Source: Vibrio spartinae (GTDB lineage: Bacteria; Pseudomonadota; Gammaproteobacteria; Enterobacterales; Vibrionaceae). From it: a DNA stretch of 64,000 bases. Below, piece after piece: positions 6,539-58,470 of this stretch. The stretch's first letter is position 1, and each line of letters begins with the position of its first letter. The position numbers were made by a program, and so were the translations under genes. The DNA is taken from assembly GCF_024347135.1 (NCBI RefSeq), contig NZ_AP024908.1:868001-932000 (forward strand), written 5' to 3'. Under the pieces are notes generated by a model that was given only the letters and a program-made list of their open reading frames with translations, did not search any database and was not told the DNA's origin.

Positions 6539-6567
6539 CAGGGGACACTCGTCCCCTGTTATTGTTT
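6539..6567 (+). terminator. Terminator after nuclease gene
   Basis: An 8-bp perfect stem (CAGGGGAC with GTCCCCTG, four-base loop ACTC) followed by TTATTGTTTT, 18 bases after the stop codon. Confidence 0.85.
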
Positions 6568-6627
6568 TGAGACTGGCATCTGCCTGATCCTGAACGCGTC
6601 AAACCGCTGCATGAGCACTTTTCCTAT

Positions 6628-7905
6628 TTCCCCCCGCCTCCGGGCACCGAAATATGACGCACAATTGCGTTTGCCAATTTCAGCGGCATGGGTGTCCTGC
6701 CCGGAAAAGCTTAATCATTCTCCCGGAATGATTTTCTTTGTTCGGTGGTTGATTTGAAGTTGGGTGAAATCTAAAGAAAGTCGATTTGGTCGCTGCTCTC
6801 AGGGGGAAAAATCCCGGATGGATTTTTCAGGATTGCTTGAGCAGGATGCGAATCAATCCGACCCTGATTACGCGTACTGAACCTAAAAAGATGCTTTTGG
6901 TTCCTTTTGCATCATCAAAAGGAACTGGGGCGCTGTCGGGGATGCCATTGAAATCGGCAAAAATAATCGCGCACCAAATCACTGCACCTCACCTTTAAAC
7001 TTCCCAGCCTTCGGCCCCAAATTTTGACGCACAATCTCGTTTTTTGGTTTCAGAGGCATTGGTGTCTTGTGCGCCAGTTACTCTTGCCGAGATGCAAGAG
7101 TAACCAGAAAATCTTTTTTGTTTGGCTGAGTTGCGTGTTGTCCAGAACCAGCTTTTACGGGCGTCCTGCCCGGAAAAGCTTAATCATTCTTCCGTGAATG
7201 ATTTTCTTGGTTTGGTGGCTGATTTGAATTGAGTGAAACATTTTAAGAGCCGACTTGAACGATGCACTCAGGGTAAAAATTCAAGGATGAATTTTTAGCT
7301 TTTCGTGAGCAGGAGCGAATAAAAGCGACCCGGCCAGCGTCCACGAACTAAAACGTTCTTTTGGGTACTTTTGGAACGCCAAAAGTATCTGGGGCGCGTG
7401 CATCAGATGCCGCAGAAATTAATAAACTCATTGCGCCTCAAACAACAGAGCACAATGTTCATCTCCCCAGCCTTCGGCCCCCAAATTTTGACGCACAATT
7501 GCGTTTGCCAATTTCAGCGGCATCGATGCTCAGTGCGCCAGTTCATCTTTCAGAGATGAAAGACGAACCAGAAAATCTTTTTTTGTTGGGCTTGGGTGTG
7601 CGCTTTCCAGAACCGTCTTTTACGGGCATCCTGCCCGGAAAAGCCTAACCATTCTTCCGTGAATGGTTTTCTTGGTTTGGTGGTTGATTTGAAGTTGGGT
7701 GAAATCTAAAGAAAGTCGATTTGGTCGCTGCTCTCAGGGGGAAAAATCCCGGATGGATTTTTCAGGATTGCTTGAGCAGGATGCGAATCAATCCGCCCCT
7801 GATAACGCGTACTGAACCAGAAAAGATGCTTTTGGTTCCTTTTGCATCCATCAAAAGGAACTGGGGCGCAGTCGGAGATGCTAATGAAACCGAGCGTCCC
7901 AAACC
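6628..7905 (+). repeat. Multi-hairpin repeat cluster I (about three tandem units)
   Basis: Three head-to-tail copies of a unit of about 430-460 bp. Unit landmarks in order are: CCTTCGGCCCC with TTTTGACGCACAAT; hairpin A (7077-7104, 11-bp stem); hairpin B around GGGCGTCCTGCCC (7151-7179); hairpin C (7182-7203); hairpin D (7275-7296); hairpin E (7366-7387); and a closing CTGGGGCGC. The third unit repeats these at 7541-7568, 7617-7644, 7647-7668, 7741-7763 and about 7833-7861. The first unit (6628-6945) has lost hairpin A. Bases differ between units in matched pairs that keep the stems. Short open frames exist in both strands but the pairing, not a protein, is what is conserved. No transposase is present. 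The cluster ends about 190 bp before a bacteriocin gene. Confidence 0.85.
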
Positions 7906-8094
7906 ACAACCCAATCCTAATATACCCCTTTATTTCATGTTACCCCCATTCCAAAAATAACCTTTTCCCTATCAGAAAACCAAATTCAAATATGACTTAT
8001 AAACTCTATTGAGTATAATTAATGATTCATATGAAAATAACCTTATCAATAAGCATCCATCGATAAAACAATCACGGCTCAGCCAACAACGTCA

Positions 8095-9657
8095 ATGAAC
8101 GATCAAATCACTCAAATCTACAACCTGATGAGCCATGAATTTGCTCAGGTTGAAGGAGACTTCACTTCCCTACGCGAGTCAGATGTGAAATCCGTTATCC
8201 CTGCCGGAATGCGCTTTGCCGATTTTCTTGGACAGCTTCGTAGCGGCCATCAAGTATTACTGACGGATGTACCGTCGATTCCGTTACTCATTCGGGATAA
8301 AGATGAATGGGGCAATTCATACTGGCGGGTCAATCCCGAAGTTGAGCCTCATCTCGACGGGCTGGCCTACAAGGCTTATACCGCCAGAGTTGAATTGGTC
8401 AATCATGGCATTGGTTCGACTTCTTCCGGCAGTGTGAATGCTTCTGTGTCTACCGAGCCTTATGTCGAACGCGAACCCGTGAAACTCACTTTAGCAGCGC
8501 GTCTGAACAAGCAACGTCAGGAGCGGTTACGGGCGTTGGATACAATCCCACTGCCTTCATCCGCATGGCAAAACGCATTTAATCAGCCACCCGTCAAACC
8601 CTCTCGTTTCGCCAAATCCGCTCTGGTACCGAGAGGCTCGTGTGATATCGGTACACAACGAGAGTCACTTTCTGCGCTGGGGGATTATGCGGCTTATACA
8701 ATTGCCGTCGGGCAGGGGATCAGTGCTGCTTCTGAAGACGCTTTTTTAACGCGCATTGGCGGTGCAGCGCTGGCAGAATTGCCGGGGCTGACGATGAAAA
8801 TCATCGGGCGAGCCGGAATGTTGGCCGCATTTGTGCCGAACCAATTAGCGGACAGTACGCTCTACAGTGCAGCCGATATTCGCAGTAAAGACAGGGTTGA
8901 AACCAATATCCGCTTGGGTTTCAATACGGCAGGCCGGATTTACGGCTATCACGTCAATGGGGCGGTGATTCCCAAGCGTGAAGTCAAACGGGTCGGTGAG
9001 CAGTTTGTCGTTGCGTTAGAGCCGGATGTCACCATTGAATGGGTGCCGATTAGCGGTGATTTTGGCGGCAAACCGATTCTGGTTAACCCCATCCCGGAGA
9101 TGGAAAAGTTCGATATCTGGATCCATCCGCAAGCGGAGCAAGGTCAAGAGTTTGATAACACCTATATCACCCCAATTGCTGATGCGAATTTACAAGACTA
9201 TATTTTGACCTTTCCGGCAGAGACTGGATTACCGCCGTTGTATGTGGTTTACAAAGAAAGCGCTCGCAACGAGTCGGGCGTCGTGACCGGCAACGGTGAA
9301 GATATTACTGGCCTGTGGTTGGAAGCCGCCGGAAAAGAGTTAGGTGTACCGGTGCCGTCACAAATTGCGGATCAACTCAGAGGCCGTGAGTTCAGTAATT
9401 TTGATGGGTTTCGGAAAGCGTTTTGGGCTGAGGTTTCCAAAGATTCAGGACTCAAAACACAATTTATAGACAATAACGTCGAGAGAATGGGTAAAGGATA
9501 TGCACCTCGTGCAAGGAAAAAAGATTCGGTTGGCGGTAGAAAATCTTTCGAATTGCATCATGTGGAGGAAATCCAGAATGGCGGTAAGGTCTATGATGTT
9601 GATAATATTCGTGTCACAACCCCCAAGAATCATATAGATATACATAAGGGCAAGTAA
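8095..9657 (+). CDS. S-type-pyocin-like bacteriocin with HNH DNase domain
   Basis: 520 residues. Residues 1-200 are a front domain shared with the second bacteriocin of this window, including FAKSALVPRGSCDIGT. Residues 200-405 resemble the S-type pyocin translocation domain, with DYILTFPAETGLPPLYVVYK. The last 100 residues are a colicin E9-type HNH nuclease: FSNFDGFRKAFWAEV, then HHVEEIQNGGKVYDVDNIRV and HIDIHKGK, with H488/H489, H513 and H517 as likely metal and catalytic residues. It should cut DNA in a competitor cell. No signal peptide or TonB box is visible, so delivery could be by release on lysis or by type VI secretion; neither is proved. The immunity gene starts immediately after the stop. 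ATG 8095 matches the homologous start of the second copy. Confidence 0.9.
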   Translation: MNDQITQIYNLMSHEFAQVEGDFTSLRESDVKSVIPAGMRFADFLGQLRSGHQVLLTDVPSIPLLIRDKDEWGNSYWRVNPEVEPHLDGLAYKAYTARVELVNHGIGSTSSGSVNASVSTEPYVEREPVKLTLAARLNKQRQERLRALDTIPLPSSAWQNAFNQPPVKPSRFAKSALVPRGSCDIGTQRESLSALGDYAAYTIAVGQGISAASEDAFLTRIGGAALAELPGLTMKIIGRAGMLAAFVPNQLADSTLYSAADIRSKDRVETNIRLGFNTAGRIYGYHVNGAVIPKREVKRVGEQFVVALEPDVTIEWVPISGDFGGKPILVNPIPEMEKFDIWIHPQAEQGQEFDNTYITPIADANLQDYILTFPAETGLPPLYVVYKESARNESGVVTGNGEDITGLWLEAAGKELGVPVPSQIADQLRGREFSNFDGFRKAFWAEVSKDSGLKTQFIDNNVERMGKGYAPRARKKDSVGGRKSFELHHVEEIQNGGKVYDVDNIRVTTPKNHIDIHKGK

Positions 9658-9915
9658 GTGAATTTAAAAAATAGTATTAATGAATATTTTGAAGATGAAT
9701 TTTTACAGCTATTGCAGAAAATCTGCAAAGCTGAAACCTCTTCAGAAAATGAACTGGATGCTTTAGTTGATCACTTTGAAGATATAACAGAGCACCCAGA
9801 TGGTTCAGACTTAATTTACTATCCAGATGATCCGGCAGATGCAACCCCCGAGCGCATTGTTGAGATTGTCAAACAATGGAGAATCTCGCAAGGCTTGCCA
9901 TGCTTTAAGGACTGA
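9658..9915 (+). CDS. Colicin E9-type immunity protein (Im9-like)
   Basis: 85 residues, the family's normal length. It carries the Im2/Im9 signature: LKNSINEYFEDEFLQLLQKI, then DHFEDITEHPDGSDLIYYP and IVKQWRISQGLP. In this family the acidic helix II gives specificity and the conserved helix III (SDLIYYP) gives binding energy, blocking the exosite of the DNase. The start is GTG directly abutting the TAA of the DNase gene, with AAGGG about nine bases upstream inside the toxin gene. That arrangement couples translation of immunity to toxin. It protects the producer and kin from the DNase. Confidence 0.92.
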   Translation: MNLKNSINEYFEDEFLQLLQKICKAETSSENELDALVDHFEDITEHPDGSDLIYYPDDPADATPERIVEIVKQWRISQGLPCFKD

Positions 9916-10200
9916 TTCGGTCTTTTATTTTCCACTGAGTCTATCAGTCAATTGAGTGATGTTTCACGTCATTCAAATCAAGCACTGGGGTGCACAAGAC
10001 GTCGCTGTCTCAGATTCCAGAGAAAGGCATTATGCGTCACACTTCGAAGCCAAAGCCTGAGACAATCATCAGGGAAAGAAATAAAAAAGAACCGCGTCGC
10101 ATTTTATCCTTCAACAATGCTAAAACTATGATAAACAGTGTTTTTTCTGAACACTTCTTTTATGCTAGAGCCATGTTGTCCACCAAAGCGAAGCACGATT
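9916..10200. other. Intergenic region before MNT-HEPN gene
   Basis: 285 bases with no convincing gene. It probably holds the MNT-HEPN promoter. The open frame running into the gene from 10138 is not conserved in the second copy, so I treat it as leader. Confidence 0.5.
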
Positions 10201-11082
10201 ATGAAAACCTCCCTTGACCACCTGCCTGAATATAAACAGCATGAGCTGGCCACGATCTCGACCATTCTGCGTGATACGCTGGACGACTATCTCAAGGGCA
10301 AAACGGGGAGTAAAAGCGAGTTTCGTATTCTGAAAATCATTCTGTTCGGTAGCCATGCCAAAGGCAATTGGGTCAGCGATCCGGTCAATGGTTATATCAG
10401 CGATTACGATATTCTGGTGATCGTCAACAAAGCCGCCTTGGTAGAGGATTATGTGGTCTGGCTGCCGGCGGAAGAGCAAATTAACCGCAAAGTAAAATCC
10501 GCACCGCTTGGTTTGATTGTTCACGATTTACAGGAAGTGAATGAACGATTGCAGCAGGGGCACTACTTTTTTCGGGATATCCGTGAAGAAGGAATCGAAC
10601 TGTTTGCCGCGACACCGAAGCCGCTGACGGAGCCGGGGGATTTAACCGAACAAGAAAAACTGGAAATTGCACGTAAACATTATGATCAGTGGTCTCACTC
10701 TGCATTTCGTTTTTTCCGTAATTATGAATTCTCTATTTCCGAGGATGATTTGATTAACGCAGCATTTATGTTGCACCAAGTAACTGAACGTTGTTTAGCC
10801 TGTACTCTACTCACATGCACCAACTACTTACCCAAATCCCACAATATCGAAAAGCTGGGGAAACTCTGTGCCCAAATCGAGCCAGAGTTTAAGACGATTT
10901 TCCCACTCGACAATAAATTCCACCGTCGCAGCTTCCGTCGCCTGCAACGGGCCTATATCGAAGCCCGTTATTCAGAGCATTATGAAATCACCGCAGAAGA
11001 GCTGGCTTATCTTGAAGGGAGAGTGCAACAATTAAGAACACTGGCAGAACGGGTTTGTTTAGCGCGGATTAACGGGGCTTGA
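10201..11082 (+). CDS. Nucleotidyltransferase-HEPN fusion protein, copy 1
   Basis: 293 residues from ATG 10201. The N-terminal half is a minimal nucleotidyltransferase: LFGSHAKG with G50-S51, then SDYDILV with D68 and D70 as metal ligands. The C-terminal half is a HEPN helical domain with SFRRLQRAYIEARYSEHYEIT. Separate MNT and HEPN proteins form toxin-antitoxin pairs in which MNT adds AMP to the HEPN RNase. Here the two are fused, as in a known but poorly characterised family. I chose this start because the second copy at 52625 becomes homologous exactly here (MKT-LDHLPEYKQ). The gene has three relatives in the window, one intact and two broken, all in accessory DNA. Confidence 0.8.
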   Translation: MKTSLDHLPEYKQHELATISTILRDTLDDYLKGKTGSKSEFRILKIILFGSHAKGNWVSDPVNGYISDYDILVIVNKAALVEDYVVWLPAEEQINRKVKSAPLGLIVHDLQEVNERLQQGHYFFRDIREEGIELFAATPKPLTEPGDLTEQEKLEIARKHYDQWSHSAFRFFRNYEFSISEDDLINAAFMLHQVTERCLACTLLTCTNYLPKSHNIEKLGKLCAQIEPEFKTIFPLDNKFHRRSFRRLQRAYIEARYSEHYEITAEELAYLEGRVQQLRTLAERVCLARINGA

Positions 11083-11677: not shown

Positions 11678-12979
11678 GGTAGTGTTCAAATTTCTGTGTC
11701 ATTTCTTTAAACTGAACCAAAAAGGAAATGACACCTTATGTCTGACGATAAATTCGAAATTGATATTCAAGCTTTTGCCAAAGCATTGCAATCCGGTCAG
11801 GGCCTCAACGGCAAAGACGGTTTGCTCACCCCGTTGATTAAGCAAATCACTGAAGCCGCGCTCGGGGCTGAAATCGAACAGCACCTTGAAGCTGAGCCCG
11901 ACAATCGCAAAAATGGAAAATCCCGCAAAACCGTTAAAACCTCATCCGGGGAATTTGAACTTGAAACGCCCCGTGACCGAAATGGCTCTTTTGACCCGCA
12001 AACTGTCAAGAAGCACCAGACCCGACTGACCGATGAGATGGAACGTAATGTCCTCTCCCTGTTTGCCCTTGGCAACAGCTATCAACATATCCGGGAATAT
12101 CTGCTGGATATGTATGGTATCAGCGTTTCCAATGGCACGATTAACGCCATCACCGACCGTCTTATCCCTGAGCTCAGAGCATGGCAGGAGCGGGATTTAG
12201 ACCCCGTCTATCCGGTCGTCTGGCTTGATGCCGTTCACTACAAAATCAAGGAAAACGGTCGCTTTGTTTCCAAAGCCATTTACACCATCCTTGCACTCAA
12301 TATCGAAGGAAAAAAAGAGCTGCTGGGGATTTATCTCTCTGATGCCGAAGGCGCGCATTACTGGCTCAGTGTCCTGACCGACTTACAAAATCGCGGTGTC
12401 AAAGATATTTGTATTGCTTGTGTCGATGGCCTCAAAGGGTTCCCTCAGGCGATTGAAACCATTTACCCGCAGACTGAAGTCCAACTCTGTGTTATCCATC
12501 AAATCCGTAACTCGATGAAGTATGTCGCCAGCAAAAATCAGAAAGCGTTTATGGCGGATTTAAAATGTGTTTATAAAGCGGCAACCCTTAAAGCTGCCGA
12601 ACATGAGCTGGATGAGCTGGAAGCCAAATGGGGACCACAATACCCGCTGGTGATTCAGTCATGGCGCAATAAATGGGAGAACTTATCGGTGTATTTCAAA
12701 TATCCCGAACAGGTCCGCAGAGCCATTTACACCACCAATGCGGTTGAGGCGGTACATCGTCAGTTCCGCAAACTGACCAAAACCAAGGGCGGTTTTGCTA
12801 ATGAAACCAGCTTGCTCAAGCTGTTGTATGCAGGTATGTTGAAAGCCAGTGAAAAGTGGACGCATCCGGTGCAGAACTGGAACCTGACACTGTCTCAGCT
12901 CAGCATCCACTTTGAAGGCAGACTCACTCCATATCTGGATTTATAAAAATGGGCGTGACACAGAATAATGAACAGTCTC
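11678..12979 (+). mobile_element. IS256-family insertion sequence, complete
   Basis: 1302 bp with imperfect terminal inverted repeats of about 24 bp: TGTTCA, three or four variable bases, TTCTGTGTCA at the left, and the matching sequence inverted at 12956-12979. It is flanked by an 8-bp direct repeat GTTTAGAG at 11670-11677 and 12980-12987, the target duplication size usual for IS256. It carries one intact transposase gene. The insertion split the last 13 codons from an Lrp/AsnC gene. Confidence 0.92.
11738..12946 (+). CDS. IS256-family transposase (mutator type)
   Basis: 402 residues, full length for the family. The DDE residues are visible in VVWLDAVHYKIKE, IACVDGLKGFP and TNAVEAVHRQFRK; the C/H signature CVIHQIRNS lies between the second D and the E. 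AAGGAA eleven bases before the ATG supports the start. It moves the element by a copy-out, circle-forming mechanism in known members. No frameshift is seen, so it may be active. Confidence 0.95.
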   Translation: MSDDKFEIDIQAFAKALQSGQGLNGKDGLLTPLIKQITEAALGAEIEQHLEAEPDNRKNGKSRKTVKTSSGEFELETPRDRNGSFDPQTVKKHQTRLTDEMERNVLSLFALGNSYQHIREYLLDMYGISVSNGTINAITDRLIPELRAWQERDLDPVYPVVWLDAVHYKIKENGRFVSKAIYTILALNIEGKKELLGIYLSDAEGAHYWLSVLTDLQNRGVKDICIACVDGLKGFPQAIETIYPQTEVQLCVIHQIRNSMKYVASKNQKAFMADLKCVYKAATLKAAEHELDELEAKWGPQYPLVIQSWRNKWENLSVYFKYPEQVRRAIYTTNAVEAVHRQFRKLTKTKGGFANETSLLKLLYAGMLKASEKWTHPVQNWNLTLSQLSIHFEGRLTPYLDL

Positions 12980-13708: not shown

Positions 13709-14857
13709 ATGTTCAGGCAAGAAAGTCAGTATTTATTTCAAACCGTTATTTTACTCATCGGTGTTAGTGTCATTGGATCAAATGCTTTTTTAATGAGTCC
13801 AATTCTTAGTAATATTGCTCAGTCATTGGATACCGATATGACAAAAATTGCCTGGTCCATCTCCGCATATGGTGGTGCAATGGCGTTAGGGAGTTTATTT
13901 TTAACCGGTCTTCCTCAGCGTATTGGTTTGAAATCAACGCTTCTCCTCACAGGAACAGTGTTATCTATTAGCATCTTAATGACAGGATTATCAACAAATT
14001 GGATCATGCTTGTCGTTGCACAAACCTTAACTGGGATAAGCGCTGGGGTGTTACTTCCGACCTTGTATTCGATGACAGCCATTATTGCCCCTAAGGGAAA
14101 AGAGTCCACAACCTTAGGGAAAGTGATTTCTGGATGGTCATTAGCGATGATTGCTGGTGTTCCATTAAGTGCTTTTGTTTCAGAGCTACTATCTTGGCGC
14201 TCCGCCTATTTTTTTGTTTTCATATTGTCGCTTCTATCAACATTAGGATATTTTTTACTGCCTTCTAAAGAGAGTCTTTCTACCGCTACCTCCCTTCAGT
14301 CTGCCTTTCAAGTGCCTAAGGCAAAATCCATATTCATTATAACTTTTTTCTACATGATCAGCTTTTATGGAACCTATACATTCTTGGGTAGCTATATACA
14401 ACAGCAGTTACTTTACTCCACAGTATATGCTGGTATGGCGGTTTTATCTTATGGATTGGGCTTTGGTTTTGCTGGCATATTTTTAGGAAAATTCATTGAT
14501 AAAAGAGATTCATGGGAAATCATATCCCCTTGCTTACTATTCATATGTGGAATCTACTTGTTATTGTTGATTCTATCAAATCACTACTGGAGTTTACTTA
14601 TCGGCTGCGTATTTTGGGGACTAATTAATCAGGTTATCTTAAATTGTCTTGTATCAATTCTCAATGGATTAGATGATCATCAGCGAGTAAGACTCATTGG
14701 TATATACAGTGCCGTATCCTATGGGGGAACAATGGTCGCGGCACTCGTTTACGGTGTTATCTATTTATATAAAGGATTTCATTTCATATTAATTACCTCT
14801 GCTTTGTTATGCCTGTTTGCCTTCCTAGTCCTATATGGGTTAAAACGGCACATCTAA
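13709..14857 (+). CDS. MFS transporter (DHA-like exporter)
   Basis: 382 residues with about twelve hydrophobic segments. It shows the first-half MFS pattern GLPQRIGLKSTLLLTGTVLS between helices 2 and 3 and GISAGVLLPTLYSM in helix 4. This is an inner-membrane, proton-driven exporter of the drug:H+ type by similarity; the substrate is unknown. GGAG precedes the ATG by a few bases. Divergence from an Lrp/AsnC gene suggests amino-acid or related metabolite efflux under its control. This gene, its upstream region and the Lrp gene are more AT-rich than the flanking backbone, a sign of transfer. Confidence 0.85.
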   Translation: MFRQESQYLFQTVILLIGVSVIGSNAFLMSPILSNIAQSLDTDMTKIAWSISAYGGAMALGSLFLTGLPQRIGLKSTLLLTGTVLSISILMTGLSTNWIMLVVAQTLTGISAGVLLPTLYSMTAIIAPKGKESTTLGKVISGWSLAMIAGVPLSAFVSELLSWRSAYFFVFILSLLSTLGYFLLPSKESLSTATSLQSAFQVPKAKSIFIITFFYMISFYGTYTFLGSYIQQQLLYSTVYAGMAVLSYGLGFGFAGIFLGKFIDKRDSWEIISPCLLFICGIYLLLLILSNHYWSLLIGCVFWGLINQVILNCLVSILNGLDDHQRVRLIGIYSAVSYGGTMVAALVYGVIYLYKGFHFILITSALLCLFAFLVLYGLKRHI

Positions 14858-14860
14858 TTG

Positions 14861-15117
14861 TCGTGGCAAAACCTTACTGGTTATAGACCGATCACTTGGC
14901 TTCGTTGTCTTGTGCCAACTCGCCTCCAGCCAGCGCCACATATGATGTTCTTATTCATCAGCTCGCAATTTTGCTAGCGGCTTCCTCTGGACCAAACCTC
15001 GCGGTTAAGCCCTTACCATTCGCTAGTAGTTAGCATCTAATAACGATATGAATCGCTAAGGATGGCGACCTTCCCACAGAAGGCTTTCACCTCATTCATG
15101 CCCATACTGGGCGTACA
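14861..15117 (-). mobile_element. Probable 5' fragment of a group II intron
   Basis: On the minus strand the sequence starting at 15117 reads GTGTACGCCCAGTATGGGC, like the GUGYG 5' end and first hairpin of bacterial group II introns. It continues with GTGGGAAGGTCGCC and GGTCCAGAGGAAGCCGCTAG, blocks I associate with intron domain I. No reverse transcriptase and no domain V/VI follow, so it would be a truncated remnant. The assignment is from remembered family sequence and is not verified. Confidence 0.45.
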
Positions 15118-50117: not shown

Positions 50118-50544
50118 TTAACTCCTATTTTTATTATTATGCTTAGGTGATTACTGTCGCTTGGTCACATAACAGTTTATTATACAGAACCACTCTATAG
50201 GAATACTTCTGTATAACTTACCGCCACTTGATGAAATTTCTATCCTAATCGCATGAAAAAACAGACAAAATGTCAGTAAAAAACATCACTACGTCAGAAA
50301 TCACAGCACAACGCTGTCTAATTTGCTCACAAATGATTGACTAACATTCCCACCACCATATACATCTCGGATAAGCGCCATGTGTTGGCAAATAAGCATC
50401 TGAACACCCTACATAGCATTGAATAGGTTACTAAAAATCGCCAGAAAAAATTAACCTCAACATGACATTTTTTGATGCAGGTAGGTTTTGTACAAAATTT
50501 CAGCGTTTTAATCATCAGGAAATTGGCTTTTAAAAAATGTTTCA
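50118..50544. other. Intergenic region with no clear gene
   Basis: About 430 bases that should hold the radical SAM promoter. A 72-codon minus-strand frame at 50327-50545 has no ribosome binding site and no family. Cluster II of the hairpin repeats starts at its end. Confidence 0.45.
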
Positions 50545-51716
50545 CTCAATCCAAATCAACGACTCAACCAAGAAAACCATTCACGGAAGAATGGTTAGGC
50601 TTTTCCGGGCAGGACGCCCGTAAAAGCTGGTTCTGGACAACGTGCGACGCCGTCAAACAAAAAAGATCTTCTGGTTACGCTTGCATCTTGGCAAGAGTTA
50701 CTGGCGCACAAGACACCAATGCCTCTGAAATCGAAAAACGTAATTGTGCGTCAAAATTTGGGGCCGAAGGCTGGGGAGATGAACATTGTGGCTCTGTTGT
50801 TTGAGGCGCAATGAGTTTATTAATTTCTGCGACATCTGATGCACGCGCCCCAGATACTTTTGGCGTTCCAAAAGTACCCAAAAGAACGTTTTAGTTCGTG
50901 GTCGCAGCCCGGGTCGCTTTTATTCGCTCCTGCTCACGAAAAGCTAAAAATTCATCCTTGAATTTTTACCCTGAGTGCATCGTTCAAGTCGGCTCTTAAA
51001 ATGTTTCTCTCAATTCAAATAAGCCACTAAACCAAGAAAACCATTCACGGAAGAATGGTTAGGCTTTTCCGGGCAGGACGCCCGGAAAAGACGGTTCTGG
51101 ACAACATGCGACGCCGTCAAACAAAAAAAGATTTTCTGGTTCGTCTTTCATCTCTGAAAGATGAACTGGCGCACAGAGCACCAATGCTTCTGAAACCGAA
51201 AAACGAGATTGTGCGTCAAAATTTGGGGCCGAAGGCTGGGGAGATGAACATTGTGGCTCTGTTGTTTGAGGCGCAATGAGTTTATTAATTTCTGCGACAT
51301 CTGATGCACGCGCCCCAGTTCCTTTTGATGGATGTCAAAAGGAACCAAAAGCATCTTTTTTGGGTTCAGTACGCGTTATCAGGGTCGGATTGATTCGCAT
51401 CCTGCTCAAGCAATCCTGAAAAATCGTCCTGATTTTTCACCCTGAGCCCTGTGACCAAATTGGCTTTTTGCTATGTTTCACTCAACTTAAATCAACCACT
51501 CAACAAAGAAAACCATTCACGGATGAATGGTTAGGCTTTTCCGGGCAGGACGCCCGTAAAAGCTGGTTCTGGACAACATACACATTAGCCAAATAAAAAA
51601 AGATTTTCTGGTGACTCTTGCATCTTGGCAAGAGTTACTGGCGCACAGAACACCAATATCCCTGAAACCGAAAAACTCAATTGTGCGTCAAAATTCGGTG
51701 CCAATGGCTGGGTAAA
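50545..51716 (-). repeat. Multi-hairpin repeat cluster II (two full units and one partial)
   Basis: The same unit as cluster I in reverse orientation. Landmarks on the plus strand include AACCATTC/GAATGGTT hairpins near 50576, 51037 and 51511, GGGCAGGACGCCC near 50605, 51073 and 51547, the 9-bp stem AAAAATTCA/TGAATTTTT near 50947, and GAAAAATC/GATTTTTC at 51418-51438. CCTTCGGCCCC in reverse lies near 50760 and 51230. The cluster stops 30 bases before the end of the MNT-HEPN gene. Confidence 0.85.
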
Positions 51717-51746
51717 TCAAAGTTAAAATACAGCGCTCAGGGGCGC

Positions 51747-52625
51747 TCAATCCCCAATCTTATCCCGACAAACCCGCTCCGTTAACTCCTGCAAACGCTG
51801 CACTTCACCTGCCAGATAATTAAGCTCTTCTTCAGTGATTTCGTAATATTCAGAGTAACGCGCTTCGATATAAGCCCGTTGTAGGCGGCGGAAGCTGCGA
51901 CGGTGCAATTTGCTGTCGAGCGGGAAAATCGTCGCAAAATCAGGGGCGATTTGTGAACACAGTTTACCCAGCTTTTCAATATCGTGAGATTTGGGTAAGT
52001 AATTGGTGCAGACGAGTAACGTTCCAGCAAGAAACCGTTCTGTCGATTGATGCAATTCAAATGCAGACTTTTTGAGTTTGCCTCGATTTTTATCAAAATG
52101 ATAAGTCACCAGAAAATCCGAAGCACTCTCAAACCACTGCTCATAATGCTTACGGGCGATTTCCCGTTTTTCTGCCTCGGTTAAATCACCCGGCTCTGCC
52201 AGTGGTTTCGGTGTGGCGGCAAACAGCTCAATCCCTTCTTCGCGAATATCCCGAAAAAAATAATGCCCCTGTTGCAGTCGATTATTCACTTCGTTTAAAT
52301 CATGCACAATCAAACCCAGCGGAGCAGAGGTGACTTTACGGTCAATCTGCTCTTTGGCACGTTGCCAGACGACATCTTCCTCAACCATTGCCGCTTTATT
52401 GACAATCACCAGAATATCGTAGTCACTGATATAACCATTAACCGGATCCTTGACCCAATTCCCCTTAGCATGGCTGCCAAACAGGATGATTTTCAGAATA
52501 CGGAATTCACTCTTACTCCCCGCTTTACCTTGCAGATAATCGTCTAACGTGTCGCGCAGAATAGTTGAGATCGTCGCCAGCTCACGCTGTTTATATTCGG
52601 GCAGATGGTCAAGTGCTGTTTTCAT
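51747..52625 (-). CDS. Nucleotidyltransferase-HEPN fusion protein, copy 2
   Basis: 292 residues from ATG 52625, the position where identity with copy 1 begins (MKTALDHLPEYKQ). The nucleotidyltransferase residues are kept: LFGSHAKG, then SDYDILV. The HEPN half keeps LHQSTERFLAGTLLVCTNYL and RRLQRAYIEARYSEYYEIT. It differs from copy 1 mainly around residues 160-200 and has a Tyr where copy 1 has His in the final motif (SEYYEI against SEHYEI). Both copies look intact. The 3' end abuts repeat cluster II. Confidence 0.8.
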   Translation of the reverse strand: MKTALDHLPEYKQRELATISTILRDTLDDYLQGKAGSKSEFRILKIILFGSHAKGNWVKDPVNGYISDYDILVIVNKAAMVEEDVVWQRAKEQIDRKVTSAPLGLIVHDLNEVNNRLQQGHYFFRDIREEGIELFAATPKPLAEPGDLTEAEKREIARKHYEQWFESASDFLVTYHFDKNRGKLKKSAFELHQSTERFLAGTLLVCTNYLPKSHDIEKLGKLCSQIAPDFATIFPLDSKLHRRSFRRLQRAYIEARYSEYYEITEEELNYLAGEVQRLQELTERVCRDKIGD

Positions 52626-52853
52626 AATCGCGGCATAGGGTTGGTGGTAGATGAATGGCGTTAGCATAAAAGAAGGGGCTGACAAAGAACACCACCAACT
52701 CTCATTTTGCGCATATTGCTGATTAAAATGCGATTCAATTCAAAGCTGTAGCGAGTTCTAGCCATTCACAACCTTTTGGTATTAAACGCTGTGAAGGCTG
52801 AGTGTGTCTAACGTCGCCCTTGGAGATGGCCCCAATATGGCATTAAAATACAA

Positions 52854-52880
52854 AACGCCCGATGAAATACATCCGGCGTT
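52854..52880 (-). terminator. Terminator after the 2H phosphoesterase gene
   Basis: On the minus strand AACGCCGGATG pairs with CATCGGGCGTT (one mismatch) around TATTT and is followed by TTGTATTTT. Confidence 0.8.
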
Positions 52881-52929
52881 CATCTCATAGTGACAACCTA
52901 TGTTAGGACAAGTCACACCTTTATGTTAA

Positions 52930-53493
52930 TCATGAGAGCGGGAGTCCACTTATCTTGTATGGGCGTTCTAAAGGGATTTCCTCTAACTTTCTCAGTATAT
53001 TTGTGTCAAAGTCAAATTCAACTACCTGCAACTTAGAAATTCTACCGCTAATACAAAAGTCTTGATTATTCCAGAACTGCACCATGCCTTGACATTCTCT
53101 GGAACTCTCATCATTCCCTACACCAACATGGGGTATAAAGTCGATATCTAATCTTAGATTGTCTGCCAATAGCCCGCTGTATAGAGAATCATGCAATTTG
53201 ATTAGATGACTGAACCCCTCATCCGGAACAAGAAAAGCATGATGATAATTATTGAACGCATCCTTATTGATAGTCGCGCACCTAATCTTGAAGTCAAAAG
53301 GTAGAAAGCTTCTACTTTTTTCAATAACCTCTCGTTTAAATGCCTCGATTGAAACATTAAAAACGGGGAACACCAGCGTAAAATGCGGTTCTACTACGTG
53401 ATAAAATAGAACATCGTTCTCAGCCCTAAAAGACTGAATTAAATCATAGTCATCACCTGAAAACTCAGGAACAGCAATAACTAAAAGTGCCAT
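52930..53493 (-). CDS. 2H phosphoesterase / 2'-5' RNA ligase-like protein
   Basis: 187 residues from ATG 53493, with GGAGGAA a few bases upstream. The two HxT-like motifs are PHFTLVFPVF near residue 41 and PHVGVGNDES near residue 122; the second has Val in place of the usual Thr, so activity may differ. The family cuts or joins 2'-5' or cyclic phosphodiester bonds in RNA and nucleotides. An attC-like sequence lies directly upstream, so it may be a cassette gene. Confidence 0.8.
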   Translation of the reverse strand: MALLVIAVPEFSGDDYDLIQSFRAENDVLFYHVVEPHFTLVFPVFNVSIEAFKREVIEKSRSFLPFDFKIRCATINKDAFNNYHHAFLVPDEGFSHLIKLHDSLYSGLLADNLRLDIDFIPHVGVGNDESSRECQGMVQFWNNQDFCISGRISKLQVVEFDFDTNILRKLEEIPLERPYKISGLPLS

Positions 53494-53508
53494 ATTTCCT
53501 CCGAACAC

Positions 53509-53585
53509 ATAACGCCGTAGCTACCAAAACCAACCGCATACCAAAAATGCCGGATGTTGCGAATCCCTCTTGAGGAGCTTGTTAG
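53509..53585 (-). repeat. attC-like (VCR-type) sequence, partial
   Basis: On the minus strand TAACAAGCTCCTCAAGAGGG is followed by ATTCGCAACATCCGGCATTT and GGTTGGTTTTGGTAGCTACG, very close to the first 80 bases of Vibrio integron repeats. The second half is missing. The TAA of its start is the stop codon of the HPP gene, as is usual for cassette genes. Confidence 0.8.
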
Positions 53586-54040
53586 AACTCTGATTTTAAA
53601 CTGTATTGTTGAGCTTTTTGAAGACCTTTACTCATCAAAACTATCACGACAGAGCCAATCAAGACAGGCGTAACTAAGAATGACCAACCATGGCCTGCCA
53701 ACATAATTAGAATTGGATTCGCTCCTGCCGGTGGATGCGTTGTTTTAGATACCAACATACATGTAATACCTAACCCTGTCGCAACAGCCAAACTCATCGG
53801 TGTTACACCTACATACTGGGAAAACACTATACCAATACTGGCTGTGACCAAATGACCAAAAATTACATTTTTGGGTTGAGCAAGTGGGCTCTGTGGCAAA
53901 CCAAAAACTAGCACTGCTGTTGCCCCAAATGGAGCCATTACCAAAGCTGCACTTTCCACATTAGCTTCTACCATCAAGAGAAGACCAAGAGTAATTGAAG
54001 CCCCAACTCCTGCTACTAAAGCAGACACATAATGATTCAT
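53582..54040 (-). CDS. HPP-family inner-membrane protein
   Basis: 152 residues with four or five hydrophobic helices and the family signature SKTTHPPAGANPILIM. HPP proteins have been linked to nitrite transport in some bacteria and chloroplasts; the role here is unknown. The stop codon lies in an attC-like sequence. It is divergent from a TetR gene with two operator-like palindromes between, so TetR probably represses it. Confidence 0.85.
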   Translation of the reverse strand: MNHYVSALVAGVGASITLGLLLMVEANVESAALVMAPFGATAVLVFGLPQSPLAQPKNVIFGHLVTASIGIVFSQYVGVTPMSLAVATGLGITCMLVSKTTHPPAGANPILIMLAGHGWSFLVTPVLIGSVVIVLMSKGLQKAQQYSLKSEF

Positions 54041-54059
54041 ATAAACCTCACGATTAAAA

Positions 54060-54077
54060 GTAGAACAATCTGTCTAC
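54060..54077. promoter_or_regulatory. TetR operator-like site 1
   Basis: GTAGAACAATCTGTCTAC has one half-site identical to that of site 2, with a weaker partner. Centre-to-centre distance to site 2 is 26 bases. Confidence 0.6.
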
Positions 54078-54085
54078 TTTTGATT

Positions 54086-54103
54086 GTAGACAGATCGGTC
54101 TAC
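54086..54103. promoter_or_regulatory. TetR operator-like site 2
   Basis: GTAGACAGATCGGTCTAC is an 18-base palindrome with one mismatched pair, in the short space between the HPP and TetR genes. Confidence 0.75.
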
Positions 54104-54142
54104 CTTTGTCAATATACGCAAAACCGACTTTGAGGTGTCTTT

Positions 54143-54694
54143 ATGAGTAAGAAACGAGACTTACTATTAAGTACAGCATTAGAACTTTTTTATCGACACG
54201 GTATTAATTCCATTGGAATTAATGAAGTAATCAAGGTTTCTGGTGTGGCGAAGAAGACGCTATACAGCCACTTCAACAGCAAAGAAGATTTGGTACTCAG
54301 GGCTTTAGAGAAAAGACACCTTACCTTTATGCAATGGTTAGAAGCTAAACTTGAAAACACAACCAATAATAGTGAGTTGATTGACACACTATTTCATTCT
54401 TTAAAGGGTTGGTTTGACGGTGATGAGCCTGAACTAGGCCATTTTAACGGATGTTTCTTTATAAACACTTCTGCGGAATTCCATGACGCTAAAAGTGAAA
54501 TATCTAGCTATTGTAGCTTCCACAAAGCACAAGTACGCCAGTTAATACAAAGCAAGCTAAGTGGGGATTCAGAAGATTTGCTCAATGCGATATGTTTACT
54601 AAAAGAAGGGGCAATCACAACAGCTTATATGACAGGCGCAAGTTCTGAAGTAATAGAGAACAGTGTGAAGATCTTACGCCGTCTTGAGTGCTAA
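54143..54694 (+). CDS. TetR-family regulator of the divergent HPP gene
   Basis: 183 residues. The helix-turn-helix is ELFYRHGINSIGINEVIKVS, then GVAKKTLYSHFNSKEDLVLR. The C-terminal domain is of the TetR_C_16-like or AcrR type with HFNGCFFINTSAEF. It lies 102 bases from the HPP gene with two palindromes between and probably represses both. The stop codon TAA overlaps an attC-like sequence on the plus strand, so the divergent pair is bordered by attC-like ends on both sides. Confidence 0.88.
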   Translation: MSKKRDLLLSTALELFYRHGINSIGINEVIKVSGVAKKTLYSHFNSKEDLVLRALEKRHLTFMQWLEAKLENTTNNSELIDTLFHSLKGWFDGDEPELGHFNGCFFINTSAEFHDAKSEISSYCSFHKAQVRQLIQSKLSGDSEDLLNAICLLKEGAITTAYMTGASSEVIENSVKILRRLEC

Positions 54695-54746
54695 CGTTGG
54701 AGTTCAGGGCCTCGCCCTGGAAGTCCGCTGCAACGATGTGTTATAA
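54690..54746 (+). repeat. attC-like imperfect palindrome after TetR
   Basis: GCTAACGTTGGAGTTCAGGG, then CCTCGCCCTGGAAGTCCGC, then TGCAACGATGTGTTATA. CAGGGC pairs with GCCCTG and CGTTG with CAACG with small bulges, the look of a short attC. It overlaps the TetR stop codon. The right core is not a perfect GTTRRRY. Confidence 0.5.
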
Positions 54747-54804
54747 TCGGTTTTTTTAATAAGTAAAATTTCAATTAATTTTAATAAAATCATTTAGTTA
54801 TAAT
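54743..54804 (+). repeat. AT-rich direct repeat, left copy
   Basis: ATAATCGG, a T-run, AATAAG, AAAATTT and TTTTAATAAAATCATTTAGT recur near 57953-58008 in the same order and direction, with an extra TCAATTAA in this copy. The two copies bracket the second bacteriocin block. Confidence 0.75.
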
Positions 54805-54817
54805 TAGCGTTAAATAA

Positions 54818-55450
54818 TCCAAGGATGAATTTTTAGCTTTTCGTGAGCAGGAGCGAATAAAAGCGACCCTGATCATGTGCGCTGAACTTAAACTCAAGCA
54901 CTTTTGGGGACTTTTGCTGCTGGGCAAAAGTCTCTGGGGCGCGTGCATCAGATGTCGCAGAAATTAATAAACTCATTGCGCACCAAATCACGGCGCCTCA
55001 ATTTTCAACCTTCCCAGCCTCCGGCCCCAAATTGTGACGCACAATTACGTTCTGCGGTTTCAGAAGCATTGGCGTTCTGTGCGCCAGTAACTCTTGCCAA
55101 GATGCAAGAGTAACCAGAAAATCTTTTTTGTTTGGCTGAGTTGCGCGTTGTCCAGAACCAGCTTTTACGGGCGTCCTGCCCGAAAAAGCCTAACCATTCT
55201 TCCTTGAATGGTTTTCTTGGTTGAGTGGTTGATTTGAATAAAGTGAAACATTGAATCAACAAAGCTCAATTGATCGATGCTCTCAGGGTGAAAAATCATG
55301 GAAGATTTTTCAGGATTGCCTGAGCAGGATGCGAATCAATCCGACCCTGATTCGGTGCGTTGAACTCAAAAAGATGCTTTTGGTTACTTTTGACATTTAT
55401 CAAAAGTAACTGGGGCGCATTCGGAGATGGTAATGAAATCGAGGAAAGCC
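54818..55450 (+). repeat. Multi-hairpin repeat cluster III (partial plus full unit)
   Basis: A partial unit from hairpin D to E (54818-54945), with stem GACTTTTGC/GCAAAAGTC at 54909-54932, then a full unit to about 55450. The full unit has ATTGTG/CACAAT, the GTTACTCTTGC hairpin near 55087-55115, GGGCGTCCTGCCC near 55168, AACCATTC/GAATGGTT near 55191, and GTTACTTTTGA/TCAAAAGTAAC near 55383-55410. The first hairpin D has lost its left arm. It ends with DNA shared with the end of cluster I. Confidence 0.85.
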
Positions 55451-55662
55451 ATTGCGTCCCAAACCACAACCTAATGATAATAAGCAGAATTTACCCCGTC
55501 TTCCTCGTTACCCCTATTCCAAAAATAACCATTCCCCATCAAACCCCCAAATTTAAACATGTTTTATAAATCCATTTGAGTATAATTATTAATTCATGTG
55601 AAAACAACTTTATCAATAAGCATCCATCAATAAAACAATTACGGCTCAGCCAACAACGTCAA

Positions 55663-57243
55663 ATGAACTATCAAACCATTCAAATCTACAACCTGATGCG
55701 TTATGAATTTGCTCAGGTTGAAGGGGATTTTTCATCCTTGAACGAATCGGATATCAAATCCGTGACGCCTTCCGGAATGCGCTTTGCTGATTTTCTCGAA
55801 CAGCTTCGCAGCGGCCATCAAGTCTTACTCACTGATACACCATCCATCCCTTTATTGATTCGGGATCGGGATGAATGGGGTAATCAATACTGGCGAGTCA
55901 ATCCCGAGGTTGAGCCTCAGCTCGACGGGCTGGCATACAAGGCCTACACCGCACGGGCTGAGCTGGTCAATCATGGCATTGGTTCATCTTACGCCGGCTG
56001 TGTTAACGCCTCTGTCTATACCGAGCCTTATGTTGAACGCAATCAAGTGAAACTCACTTTAGCGCAGCGGCTGGCAAAACAGCGTCAGGAACGAATACAG
56101 GAATTAGATAACATTCAACTGCCCCCATCATCATGGCAAGACACGTTTAACAAACCTGCGCCTAAACCACAACAGGTGTTTGCCAAATCATCACTTGTCC
56201 CTTGTGACTCCTGTGATATCGGCACCGAGCAAGAATCACTGACGGATATAGGTCAGATTGCCGCTTATGGCGCTGTAGCAATGAATAACACAACAGCACT
56301 CACCGGAGAGGCGACATTTGTTGAAGCGAGTGGCTCGGCACTTAAATCCTTGAGTGGATTTGCGCTGCGGGCTGCGAAAGTCGGTCTCTCACCAGCGACA
56401 GCCGCGCTTGCACTGTTTATGCCGACGAAGGTAGCAGACAGCACCCTATATCATGCGGAAGACTTGCGTCACATGGCGGTTGCCAATACCAATATTCGTT
56501 TAGGTTTTAACCCGTCCGAGCAGATTTACGGCTATCACGTCAAAGGGGCGGAAATTCCGGTTCGCCATGTCAAACAAGTGGGAGAGAAATTTGTGGTTGC
56601 GCTGGAAAGCGACCACACCCTTGAGTGGGTGCCGATACAGCCGGAAGACAAAGAAAGTCATCTCACCACGACGCCAATCCCAGCGGTGGACAGTTACCAT
56701 ATTTGGATACACCCAGAGCGTGGTGAGGCAGAATTAGCAGGGACAAATGAGCCGTACACCACCCCGATTCATCCGGCCGATTCAAAGGATTATATTCTCA
56801 CCTTCCCGGCTGAAAGCGGTATTCCACCATTGTATGTGGTATATAGTCATCAAGTGCGTCAACCGAATGGTCAGTTTGGTGCGAGTAAATACCCCAAACC
56901 GGAGCTAAACCGAACATCTCTTCGGGCTGAGACCAAAAGACAGATTGAAGCCAATGCAAGAAAACTGAATGGTCAGTTTGTTGATGAAGACGATAATGTG
57001 ATTACAGATTGGCACTATGGACATAGGGAAGGTATGGAAAACCGACGGATACTCAGAGCGGCTGACCAGATAGGTATGACTCAGGAAGAACTGAATGATT
57101 TTGTGAATTCACACCCTGACTATTTCCTGATTGAGGATGCCAAGACCAACCTTAGTCATGTCAATGAGAAACCGGGCAGTGATGAATTAAACAAAATTCT
57201 TGGTGATATGAAGCGATTTTTAAAAGAAAGGAAGACTCAATGA
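55663..57243 (+). CDS. S-type-pyocin-like bacteriocin with GH-E nuclease domain
   Basis: 526 residues from ATG 55663, the position homologous to the first bacteriocin's start; an in-frame TTG 29 codons upstream is less likely. Residues 1-420 parallel the first bacteriocin (FAKSSLVPCDSCDIGT, DYILTFPAESGIPPLYVVYS). After that the sequence is unrelated: WHYGHREGMENRRIL (G453, H454, E456) and later SHVNEKPG fit the GH-E branch of HNH/endonuclease VII-type toxin tips. It should cut DNA or RNA in a rival cell. The immunity gene overlaps its stop by four bases. The swap of killing domain against a kept front end is typical of polymorphic toxins. Confidence 0.85.
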   Translation: MNYQTIQIYNLMRYEFAQVEGDFSSLNESDIKSVTPSGMRFADFLEQLRSGHQVLLTDTPSIPLLIRDRDEWGNQYWRVNPEVEPQLDGLAYKAYTARAELVNHGIGSSYAGCVNASVYTEPYVERNQVKLTLAQRLAKQRQERIQELDNIQLPPSSWQDTFNKPAPKPQQVFAKSSLVPCDSCDIGTEQESLTDIGQIAAYGAVAMNNTTALTGEATFVEASGSALKSLSGFALRAAKVGLSPATAALALFMPTKVADSTLYHAEDLRHMAVANTNIRLGFNPSEQIYGYHVKGAEIPVRHVKQVGEKFVVALESDHTLEWVPIQPEDKESHLTTTPIPAVDSYHIWIHPERGEAELAGTNEPYTTPIHPADSKDYILTFPAESGIPPLYVVYSHQVRQPNGQFGASKYPKPELNRTSLRAETKRQIEANARKLNGQFVDEDDNVITDWHYGHREGMENRRILRAADQIGMTQEELNDFVNSHPDYFLIEDAKTNLSHVNEKPGSDELNKILGDMKRFLKERKTQ

Positions 57244-57734
57244 GTTATGAATTGTATGAAGCTATCGTAGATGGTGAAATTGAAACAGCCAAACAATTAG
57301 TTGCCAATGGTGAAGATATTCACCATGTTACAGCTAATGATAAATGGTCATACCTACATCAGGTTGCAGATACAAAGCAGACTCCGCCGGAATCCTTTCA
57401 GTATCTGATTGACCAAGGGCTGGATGTCAACGCAATTGATAGCTATGGCTATACGCCACTGATTTATGCCGTTCGTCAACGCAACGTTGAGGGGATGTGG
57501 CTTTTGTTGGAAAACGGTGCAGATAAGCTGATTGAGCACCGTAGTGAAAGAGGAGTTAATGCCCTGAAAATGTCTCTTCATGAAAAACCGTTTGTATATG
57601 ATGTTATCAAACTATTGCTTGATTTTGGTGCTGATCCTGATGCTAAAACAGAAAAGGGAAAATCAGTCCGAGAGCTTGTTAACTTACTTGATGATATGGA
57701 TCCTAAGATTATTGAATTAGTCAGTCATTACTAA
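57240..57734 (+). CDS. Ankyrin-repeat immunity protein
   Basis: 164 residues with four to five ankyrin repeats: DGEIETAKQLVANGEDIHHV, LDVNAIDSYGYTPLIYAVRQ, RNVEGMWLLLENGADKLIEH, and YDVIKLLLDFGADPDAKTEK. It has no signal peptide. Ankyrin proteins often serve as immunity proteins for polymorphic nuclease toxins. ATGA overlap with the toxin gene means coupled translation, and a terminator follows. The role is inferred from position; specificity is not proved. Confidence 0.82.
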   Translation: MSYELYEAIVDGEIETAKQLVANGEDIHHVTANDKWSYLHQVADTKQTPPESFQYLIDQGLDVNAIDSYGYTPLIYAVRQRNVEGMWLLLENGADKLIEHRSERGVNALKMSLHEKPFVYDVIKLLLDFGADPDAKTEKGKSVRELVNLLDDMDPKIIELVSHY

Positions 57735-58008: not shown

Positions 58009-58012
58009 AAAA

Positions 58013-58310
58013 TAAAAAATCGTCCTGATTTTTCACCCTGAGTCCTGTGACCAAATTGGCTTTTTGCTATGTTTCACTCAATTCAAATCAACCACTCAAC
58101 CAAGAAAACCATTCACGGATGAATGGTTAGGCTTTTCCGGGCAGGACGCCCGTAAAAGCAGGTTCTGAACAACGTGCGACCAAGCCAAACAAAAAAAGAT
58201 TTTCTGGTTCGTCTTTCATCTCTGAAAGATGAACTGGCGCACAGAGCACCAATGTTCCTGAAATCGAGAAACTAAATTGTGCGTCAAATTTTGGAGCCAA
58301 TGGCTGGGGA
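58013..58310 (-). repeat. Multi-hairpin repeat cluster IV (partial unit)
   Basis: Reverse orientation, from hairpin D (left arm damaged, TCGTCCTGATTTTTCACCC near 58019) through hairpin C (AACCATTC/GAATGGTT near 58107), B (GGGCAGGACGCCC near 58139) and A (GTTCGTCTTTC near 58207), to TTGGAGCCAATGGCTGGGG at about 58310, where it is fused without a gap to an MNT-HEPN gene fragment. Confidence 0.82.
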
Positions 58311-58470
58311 AATCGTCGCAAAATCAGAGTCGATTTGTGAGCAAAGTTTACCCAGCTTTTCGATATCGTGAGATTTGGGTAAGTAATTGGTGCAAACGAG
58401 TCGTGTTCCGGCAAAAAATTGTTCTGTCGATTGATGAAGACGAAAAGCCGCTTGTTTCAGCCATTGTCGG
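58311..58470 (-). pseudogene. MNT-HEPN gene fragment
   Basis: The minus strand encodes KQAAFRLHQSTEQFFAGTRL, then VCTNYLPKSHDIEKLGKLCS and QIDSDFATI, matching the middle of the HEPN half of copy 2. Both ends are lost: the 5' side meets the qnr gene and the 3' side meets the repeat unit. Confidence 0.88.

Follow-up and report, generated by a model that had tools for sequence, protein, structure and literature searches.

The repeat unit and its copies

What is the multi-hairpin sequence that recurs between the genes of this region of Vibrio spartinae, and how has it come to lie beside toxin-like genes? The region was taken as a window (the whole stretch analysed, 64,000 nucleotides) which corresponds to C2:868001-932000 of a genome made up of two contigs, 4.00 and 1.19 Mb. 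The original prediction had placed about nine full or partial units in four clusters. All were found there using nhmmer, and the C, D and E hairpins quoted with them are exact to the coordinate. The units of the window are as follows.

6673..7017, plus strand: partial unit, the first in a tandem array of three (nhmmer match to unit positions 127-466)
7015..7480, plus strand: full unit of 466 bp, used as the reference unit (104 genome matches)
7479..7925, plus strand: nearly full unit at the 3' end of the array (nhmmer match to positions 1-452)
50520..50763, minus strand: partial unit at the 3' end of an array (nhmmer)
50761..51228, minus strand: full unit (nhmmer)
51226..51698, minus strand: full unit at the 5' end of the array, about 48 bp past the stop codon of an NTase-HEPN gene
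54813..55027, plus strand: partial unit (nhmmer)
55025..55469, plus strand: nearly full unit, 106 bp before a pyocin gene (nhmmer)
58010..58295, minus strand: partial unit joined to a broken NTase-HEPN fragment (window 58281-58481)

A unit measures about 466 bp. BLAST returned 104 matches to it in the genome, full or partial and many of them partial, with a best E-value, self excluded, of 5.9e-200, a recurrence well past anything expected by chance. In 21 stretches of the genome a profile HMM gave 115 hits, of which 46 are full length; together the hits form 53 clusters of one to six units. Many units follow directly on one another, head to tail, the period being about 466–485 bp. Compared with its own reverse complement the unit matches over positions 9–437 (66.8 bits, E-value=1.8e-19), and is therefore a long imperfect inverted repeat, the second half being mirrored in the first. 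Hairpins A, B and C follow one another in the first half and the mirrored D, M and E in the second. Those located on the reference unit are:

7077..7120, plus strand: hairpin A and the T-rich hairpin next to it, in the first half (unit fold; helices 1-2, columns 61-106 of alignment A3)
7182..7203, plus strand: hairpin C, AATCATTC..GAATGATT (helix 6; other copy at 7647-7668)
7275..7296, plus strand: hairpin D, with an AYGGAY-related loop (helix 8; other copy at 7741)
7366..7387, plus strand: hairpin E, TACTTTTGG..CCAAAAGTA (helix 12, 99.1% of cells paired; further E hairpins at 6901, 54909 and 55383)

A conserved protein frame, which the original prediction had raised against itself, was not seen, gaps and frames alike being at odds with coding. 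The longest stop-free frame has a median of 77 aa, where mononucleotide shuffles give 68, and of the 1088 internal gaps in the alignment 1013 have a length that three does not divide.

Relationship to RF01731

The suggestion that the family might be an undescribed structured RNA does not hold, since one unit of the window matches a catalogued Rfam motif:

50984..51149, plus strand: RF01731 (TwoAYGGAY) match to the first half of unit 50761..51228, on the opposite strand (45.2 bits; gathering score 43)

RF01731 was published in 2010 as a probable RNA, with no function assigned in the accessible part of that account (Weinberg et al., PMC2864571). Two other units exceed the gathering score (49.0 and 43.1 bits), the nine other unit matches listed range from 30.9 to 42.8 bits, under the cut-off of 43, and most single units fall just below it. 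At L047 a diverged NTase-HEPN gene is followed on its 3' side by a diverged unit, which scores as a relative of the unit at 44.6 bits and matches the whole RF01731 model at 56.2 bits. Among the matches listed, none falls directly on the second half of a standard unit; in one related genome (G156, locus L136) an element that matches this second half also matches RF01731 on the same strand (44.3 bits). The first-half match, this relative and the self-complementarity together indicate that both halves are RF01731-like and are joined in opposite directions. The loops agree in part with the two AYGGAY loops of the motif: the D loop reads ATGGAT or ACGGAT in many copies and the C loop, on the other strand, ACGGAT or ATGGAA-like, the second loop being degenerate (AGGAG, AGGAC). 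The unit is thus probably an inverted dimer of an RF01731-type element of roughly 130–220 bp, non-coding and expanded in this lineage, each monomer having two hairpins whose loops contain GGA, plus another hairpin of the CTTTTGG type or similar. Like RF01731, the units are gammaproteobacterial, reach the gathering score in some copies and carry two successive hairpins whose loops are in part AYGGAY-like; unlike RF01731 as described, they fuse two copies into an inverted dimer, form tandem arrays, border defence and toxin cassettes and often have degenerate loops.

Of 295 genomes searched within the order, 86 gave an RF01731 match (E-value ≤ 0.001), 66 of them over the cut-off. These represent 23 of 99 genera, and the highest number in one genome is at least nine matches (nine candidates were scored in each), some neighbouring matches being oppositely directed; none of 14 control genomes gave a match. 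The V. spartinae genome is the only positive of its genus in the 295-genome sample, and of eight loci searched that carry the core repeat in other Vibrio genomes one matched RF01731. We read RF01731 as a dispersed repeat. At 25 usable loci in other genera the neighbouring genes are convergent in 12 cases, codirectional in nine and divergent in four. A conserved neighbour gene was sought at 30 loci in other genera, which gave only three gene families, each shared by two loci.

Long matches to the unit occur in six of 196 genomes of the genus (G000, G084, G110, G131, G155 and G195; three candidates scored in each), and a single diverged dimer was seen in G156 (110 bits, L142). Seven other genomes of the genus carry, in the stretches examined, mainly the half around unit positions 250–450. 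Nine plasmids bear the core alone (positions 255/265–383, 76–77% identity); plasmid-borne spread of the dimer was rejected, as none of these nine records covers most of the unit, and so was a phage origin, with no match to the unit among 50,697 phage records. In two Vibrio plasmids (L235, L236) the core repeat precedes a gene for a Qnr-family pentapeptide protein; a pentapeptide-repeat gene (218 aa) also lies near a unit in the window (58471-59127, minus strand).

Folding and paired base changes

Alignment A3 was made from 76 distinct full units, without partial units or exact duplicates; 46 come from the V. spartinae genome and the other 30 from five relatives. The 86 local pairs counted were proposed by RNAalifold from this same alignment. 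Standard pairs fill 94.5% of 6469 cells (88.1% after shuffling), and 25 pairs are changed on both sides (17.7 shuffled). Cells with a double change number 376 against a shuffled mean of 156, a total reached in none of 500 shuffles, and against 18–61 in slid versions, over which the pair set has the advantage of having been drawn from the same sequences; on one measure, that of further pair types, 18 of the 500 shuffles equal the real alignment. It was accordingly confirmed that copies differ in both arms, with the folded form kept by paired changes, and that folding is truly conserved. The reference unit folds at −159.5 kcal/mol (z −4.99) and its opposite strand at −149.6 (z −4.25), in each case better than all 100 shuffles.

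The changes amount to a few block variants in each hairpin: A is mainly GTTACTCTTGC or GTTCATCTTTC, M has two main forms and E about five, so that the independent events are far fewer than the cells. Gene conversion and palindrome-templated correction could mimic selection here. Carried to its end, this would mean covariation with no function behind it, template-switch correction of quasi-palindromes keeping the arms matched while gene conversion spreads the blocks. The small number of block variants accords with such a process, as do the frequent jumps of A, M and E between Watson-Crick pairs with few intermediates. It accounts poorly for an A.C departure in hairpin A that stands uncorrected in at least 31 of the 76 copies, and for the two-hairpin pattern seen in an alignment of 21 RF01731-type elements that includes 19 from other genera; we consider it very improbable.

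In the RF01731 sense, hairpins E and A depart from Watson-Crick pairing by 141 G.U and 0 A.C, on four columns only and with 75 of the 141 in one of them. For D and C the ratio is 12 to 5 and for M and B it is 6 to 96; as M and B are opposed to E and A, no strand is favoured overall.

Genes adjoining the units

The genes in the window that bear on the relationship between units and toxin loci are:

8095..9657, plus strand: S-type pyocin/colicin-like DNase gene, 169 bp past the array (Pfam Col-Pyo_DNase, Pyocin_S)
9658..9915, plus strand: immunity gene of this DNase (Pfam Colicin_Pyocin)
10138..11082, plus strand: NTase-HEPN fused gene, with no unit within 300 bp (Pfam HEPN, Polbeta)
51747..52685, minus strand: NTase-HEPN fused gene, 312 aa (Pfam HEPN, Polbeta)
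55576..57243, plus strand: S-type pyocin with a GH-E nuclease domain (Pfam)
57240..57734, plus strand: ankyrin-repeat protein, from its position the probable immunity partner (Pfam Ank)

The S-type pyocin family has ten genes, nine with a Pyocin_S domain and one an orphan DNase-domain piece, and the ends, where a domain was recognised, are of the DNase, 'Cytotoxic' or GH-E type. Six of the ten start 106–181 bp past an array. Other neighbours of units include histidine kinase, carbohydrate-active, acyltransferase, CDI-like and Cmr genes. The proposal that the repeats are tied to the toxin loci stands insofar as S-type pyocin genes adjoin them, and fails as a special bond, CRISPR arrays, NTase-HEPN genes and ordinary genes being bordered equally.

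Neighbours of the clusters were taken from ORFs of 75 aa or more, length being the sole criterion for calling them. On the 5' side, 37 of the 53 clusters have a same-strand neighbour, and a gene ends within 100 bp in 25 as against three with an opposite-strand gene; on the 3' side 26 neighbours share the strand of the cluster and 27 do not.

NTase-HEPN genes gave 33 matches in the genome. Of these, 25 are nearly complete in length, and three of the 25 contain an in-frame stop. In 11 of the 15 closest copies a same-strand unit lies 7–57 bp past the match, joined at unit position 1–6 in seven copies and at 162 in four; two more have a unit at their 5' side, on the opposite strand, and two have none within 300 bp. 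There are ten diverged copies, and an RF01731 element lies beside one of the five whose flanks were examined. In the five relatives, 15 of the 20 best copies directly precede a same-strand unit that starts at HMM position 1–5. Broken NTase-HEPN fragments number eight, four of which lie 0–84 bp from units (C2:926281, C1:2523301, C2:1007891 and C2:1051703), resembling the 3' ends of rayt genes caught in BIMEs. Residues GS and DxD, which we take to be the nucleotidyltransferase motif, are invariant in 35 aligned proteins. A segment of about 26 residues (183–208) is hypervariable, the mean majority share being 47% inside it and 90% outside (15 own copies, L030-L043 included), and like variants of it recur in Terasakiispira proteins, as if swapped between families. 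A motif, GTTATACAGAAG..ATTC..ATAGAGTG..TTCTGTATAA, was seen at window position 50180 (minus strand) and at L042, L045 and L046, after an array or NTase-HEPN genes and shortly before GTTA-type junctions, which, at a guess, are integron-like. HEPN-nucleotidyltransferase pairs are described as toxin-antitoxin-like, and where HEPN is fused to the C-terminus of the nucleotidyltransferase its RNase motif is wholly or partly lost, according to the available portion of the source (PMC3710099).

The genome holds 62 exact repeats of the I-F type, grouped here into 15 arrays. Fourteen of the 15 have a same-strand unit upstream which stops at HMM position 264–274, some 136–145 bp before the first repeat, and in seven the unit resumes downstream at HMM position 199–205, 27–31 bp past the last repeat. 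Downstream of four other arrays comes an NTase-HEPN gene, followed by a unit; one of these four arrays, placed after a cas3/csy1 block, is the single array lacking an upstream unit. No spacer is repeated among the 47 that lie between exact repeats. The five dimer-bearing relatives have a unit 142–154 bp upstream of six of their seven arrays, and in G156, which has the NTase-HEPN gene and only diverged or partial units, none of three arrays has a unit beside it. Annotated cas genes at the V. spartinae locus are of types I-F (Csy1, Cas3-like, Cas1) and III-B (Cmr). One unit-studded region (L009-L011, C2:445-503 kb) contains 12 of the 15 arrays with the I-F and III-B cas genes, and also a VgrG-like gene, a pyocin with a 'Cytotoxic' domain and NTase-HEPN genes.

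Multiple I-F arrays with type III-B genes have been reported for V. spartinae, and a 156-bp direct repeat for a prophage-borne hybrid system in other Vibrio species (PMC6360697, in the part available). The system described there, with I-F arrays and III-B genes, is probably from the same species group; that part of the paper makes no mention of repeats bordering the arrays.

Between the second and third clusters, a 3.05-kb segment (window 51699-54747) is duplicated at C2:222708-225756 with 97.7% identity, the likeness running up to a unit in both copies; the C2:222708-225756 copy has no unit at its other end. With the units masked, 535 of 1896 duplication endpoints lie within 60 bp of a unit, as against 2.2% of random positions, a count which is biased by the masking and is not used as proof. 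Two further elements were observed in the window. A 402-aa gene (11738-12946) lies in a 1.3-kb stretch that is 99.9–100% identical to two copies at L026 and is probably an insertion sequence, and a group II intron RNA match (RF02001, 62.4 bits) occupies 14850-15008 on the minus strand.

Comparison with known repeat families

The stem-loop repeat families of bacteria include ERIC, YPAL and Nemis. As structured intergenic repeats in tens to hundreds of copies, the units resemble such families (PMC2267715, as far as its accessible text goes), and differ in arrangement, forming tandem dimers with fixed junctions to CRISPR leaders and gene ends. The layout is that of REP/BIME elements, with inverted palindromes alternating in regularly spaced arrays outside genes. 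Intergenic alternating palindromes, modular arrays, kept complementarity and 3' fragments of genes between repeats are all shared with them on the available part of the source (PMC2817692), from which the units differ in a monomer of more than 100 bp with several hairpins, in the fixed junctions with cargo and in that no RAYT-like gene was found. The original prediction had judged the family too large and ordered for REP/BIME; the far greater length and the lack of a RAYT-like transposase bear this out in part, while the layout is nonetheless that of a BIME. A Y1 search gave a single match in the V. spartinae genome, by our judgement of IS200-like length and not at units, and none in G155, which has full units, or in G326, which has at least nine RF01731 matches.

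Origin and expansion of the units

We favour, at roughly six chances in ten, a BIME-like repeat that has no RAYT transposase and was expanded by recombination, the homology shared by its copies serving to duplicate and shuffle the cassettes between them. Long repeats on both sides of a cargo are the classic substrate for unequal homologous recombination, and duplication of cassettes by this route is proposed because the same long repeat flanks the cargo on both sides. Unequal exchange between units would make the arrays grow and shrink, and homologous recombination between them would duplicate, delete and exchange cassettes. A CRISPR array may have been duplicated together with its leader, each array afterwards collecting its own spacers; recombination between units would in this way account for 15 arrays whose leaders are alike and whose spacers, where compared, are all different. 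The recurrent junctions point to few joining events, the joined pieces having then multiplied. At the 3' ends of genes the hairpins may act as a folded transcript end in the manner of REP/BIME, and the arms could be kept in step by this constraint together with palindrome-templated correction; the importance of the hairpins probably lies either at the 3' ends of RNAs or in forming REP-like structures in DNA. Recombination as the cause of expansion and shuffling is something we infer from the arrangement of the sequences. Against it, the recurrent junctions also fit descent from a few ancestral cassettes in which the units were passive, the three G156 arrays have no unit, the second copy of the 3.05-kb duplicate has none at its far end, ordinary genes are bordered too, and the 3' sides show no strand preference.

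Among the alternatives, a functional structured RNA has the most to commend it. The units would be transcribed from the upstream gene, or in the RF01731 sense, and the transcript would do the work, say as a terminator, an mRNA stabiliser or a protein-binding RNA, with tandem copies raising the dosage. Strong covariation, folds that beat every shuffle on both strands, the excess of G.U over A.C at E and A, and the position of arrays after same-strand genes are all as expected of such an RNA, and in the accessible text the authors of RF01731 themselves grade it 'probably' RNA (PMC2864571). The G.U signal comes from four columns and is reversed at M and B, the unit is palindromic on both strands, and promoter-like and terminator-like sites at 6550-8100 occur at the level of chance (2 and 2, as against 1.5 and 1.8 in shuffled sequence), and we hold this reading to be unlikely, if clearly the best of the rivals. 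Less likely again is a non-autonomous element of the REP/BIME type moved by a Y1 (RAYT) transposase acting on the hairpins. Its inverted pairs in repeated intergenic arrays, its paired changes and the four of eight broken NTase-HEPN fragments within 84 bp of units would suit such an element, REPs being known for preserved complementarity and captured rayt 3' ends (PMC2817692, in its accessible part); the lone Y1 match away from units and the lack of any in G155 or G326 count against it.

It is also conceivable, at long odds, that the NTase-HEPN gene and the unit array form one system, in which the protein acts on the folded RNA or DNA of the 3' array or is checked by it, either as a RAYT-like partner or with the array as an RNA-type antitoxin. 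The gene and the dimeric unit occur in the same seven of 196 genomes of the genus (counting full-length gene matches, with a weak match in G142 set aside and G156 included through its diverged dimer), and the junctions between gene 3' end and unit recur. The seven genomes are probably close relatives, however, most units stand without an NTase-HEPN gene, and only one of the five diverged copies has an RF01731 element. Relatives of the gene were found without a unit-like repeat at all of 74 non-Vibrio loci (flanks of up to 4 kb, a set that excluded the closest non-Vibrio relatives, Terasakiispira and Gynuella), without RF01731 at the seven of these searched with Rfam, and without a unit at a V. 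ruber locus (L147), which weakens the one-system reading, and it is not claimed. In type III toxin-antitoxin systems short tandem RNA repeats lie just upstream of an RNase toxin gene; here the repeats are about 466 bp long and mostly downstream of the gene. Similarly slight is the chance that units and NTase-HEPN protein make up a system dedicated to amplifying cassettes, in which the protein recognises the folded unit, as RNA or single-stranded DNA, and drives by a single mechanism the copying of the DNA between units (CRISPR arrays, bacteriocin-immunity pairs and its own gene) with no classical transposase.

Significance

The RF01731 element was already known, catalogued but unexplained; what appears to be new is its dimeric, tandem form bordering CRISPR, NTase-HEPN and pyocin cassettes. 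In the open-access literature searched, the titles and abstract openings listed gave no account of these units, no description of RF01731 as a dispersed repeat and no report of repeats bordering CRISPR arrays in this Vibrio group.

A long-unexplained Rfam RNA motif is seen here as a multicopy repeat of gammaproteobacteria, which shifts what should be tested about RF01731. In one Vibrio species group this repeat borders most of the CRISPR arrays examined, and the arrangement suggests that the units help CRISPR, bacteriocin and toxin-antitoxin-like genes to multiply and shuffle. If the units do mediate exchange, they would be an instance from nature of CRISPR arrays multiplied by the repeats on either side of them. 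They also offer a possible route by which a genome may come to hold many copies of bacteriocin-immunity pairs and NTase-HEPN genes.
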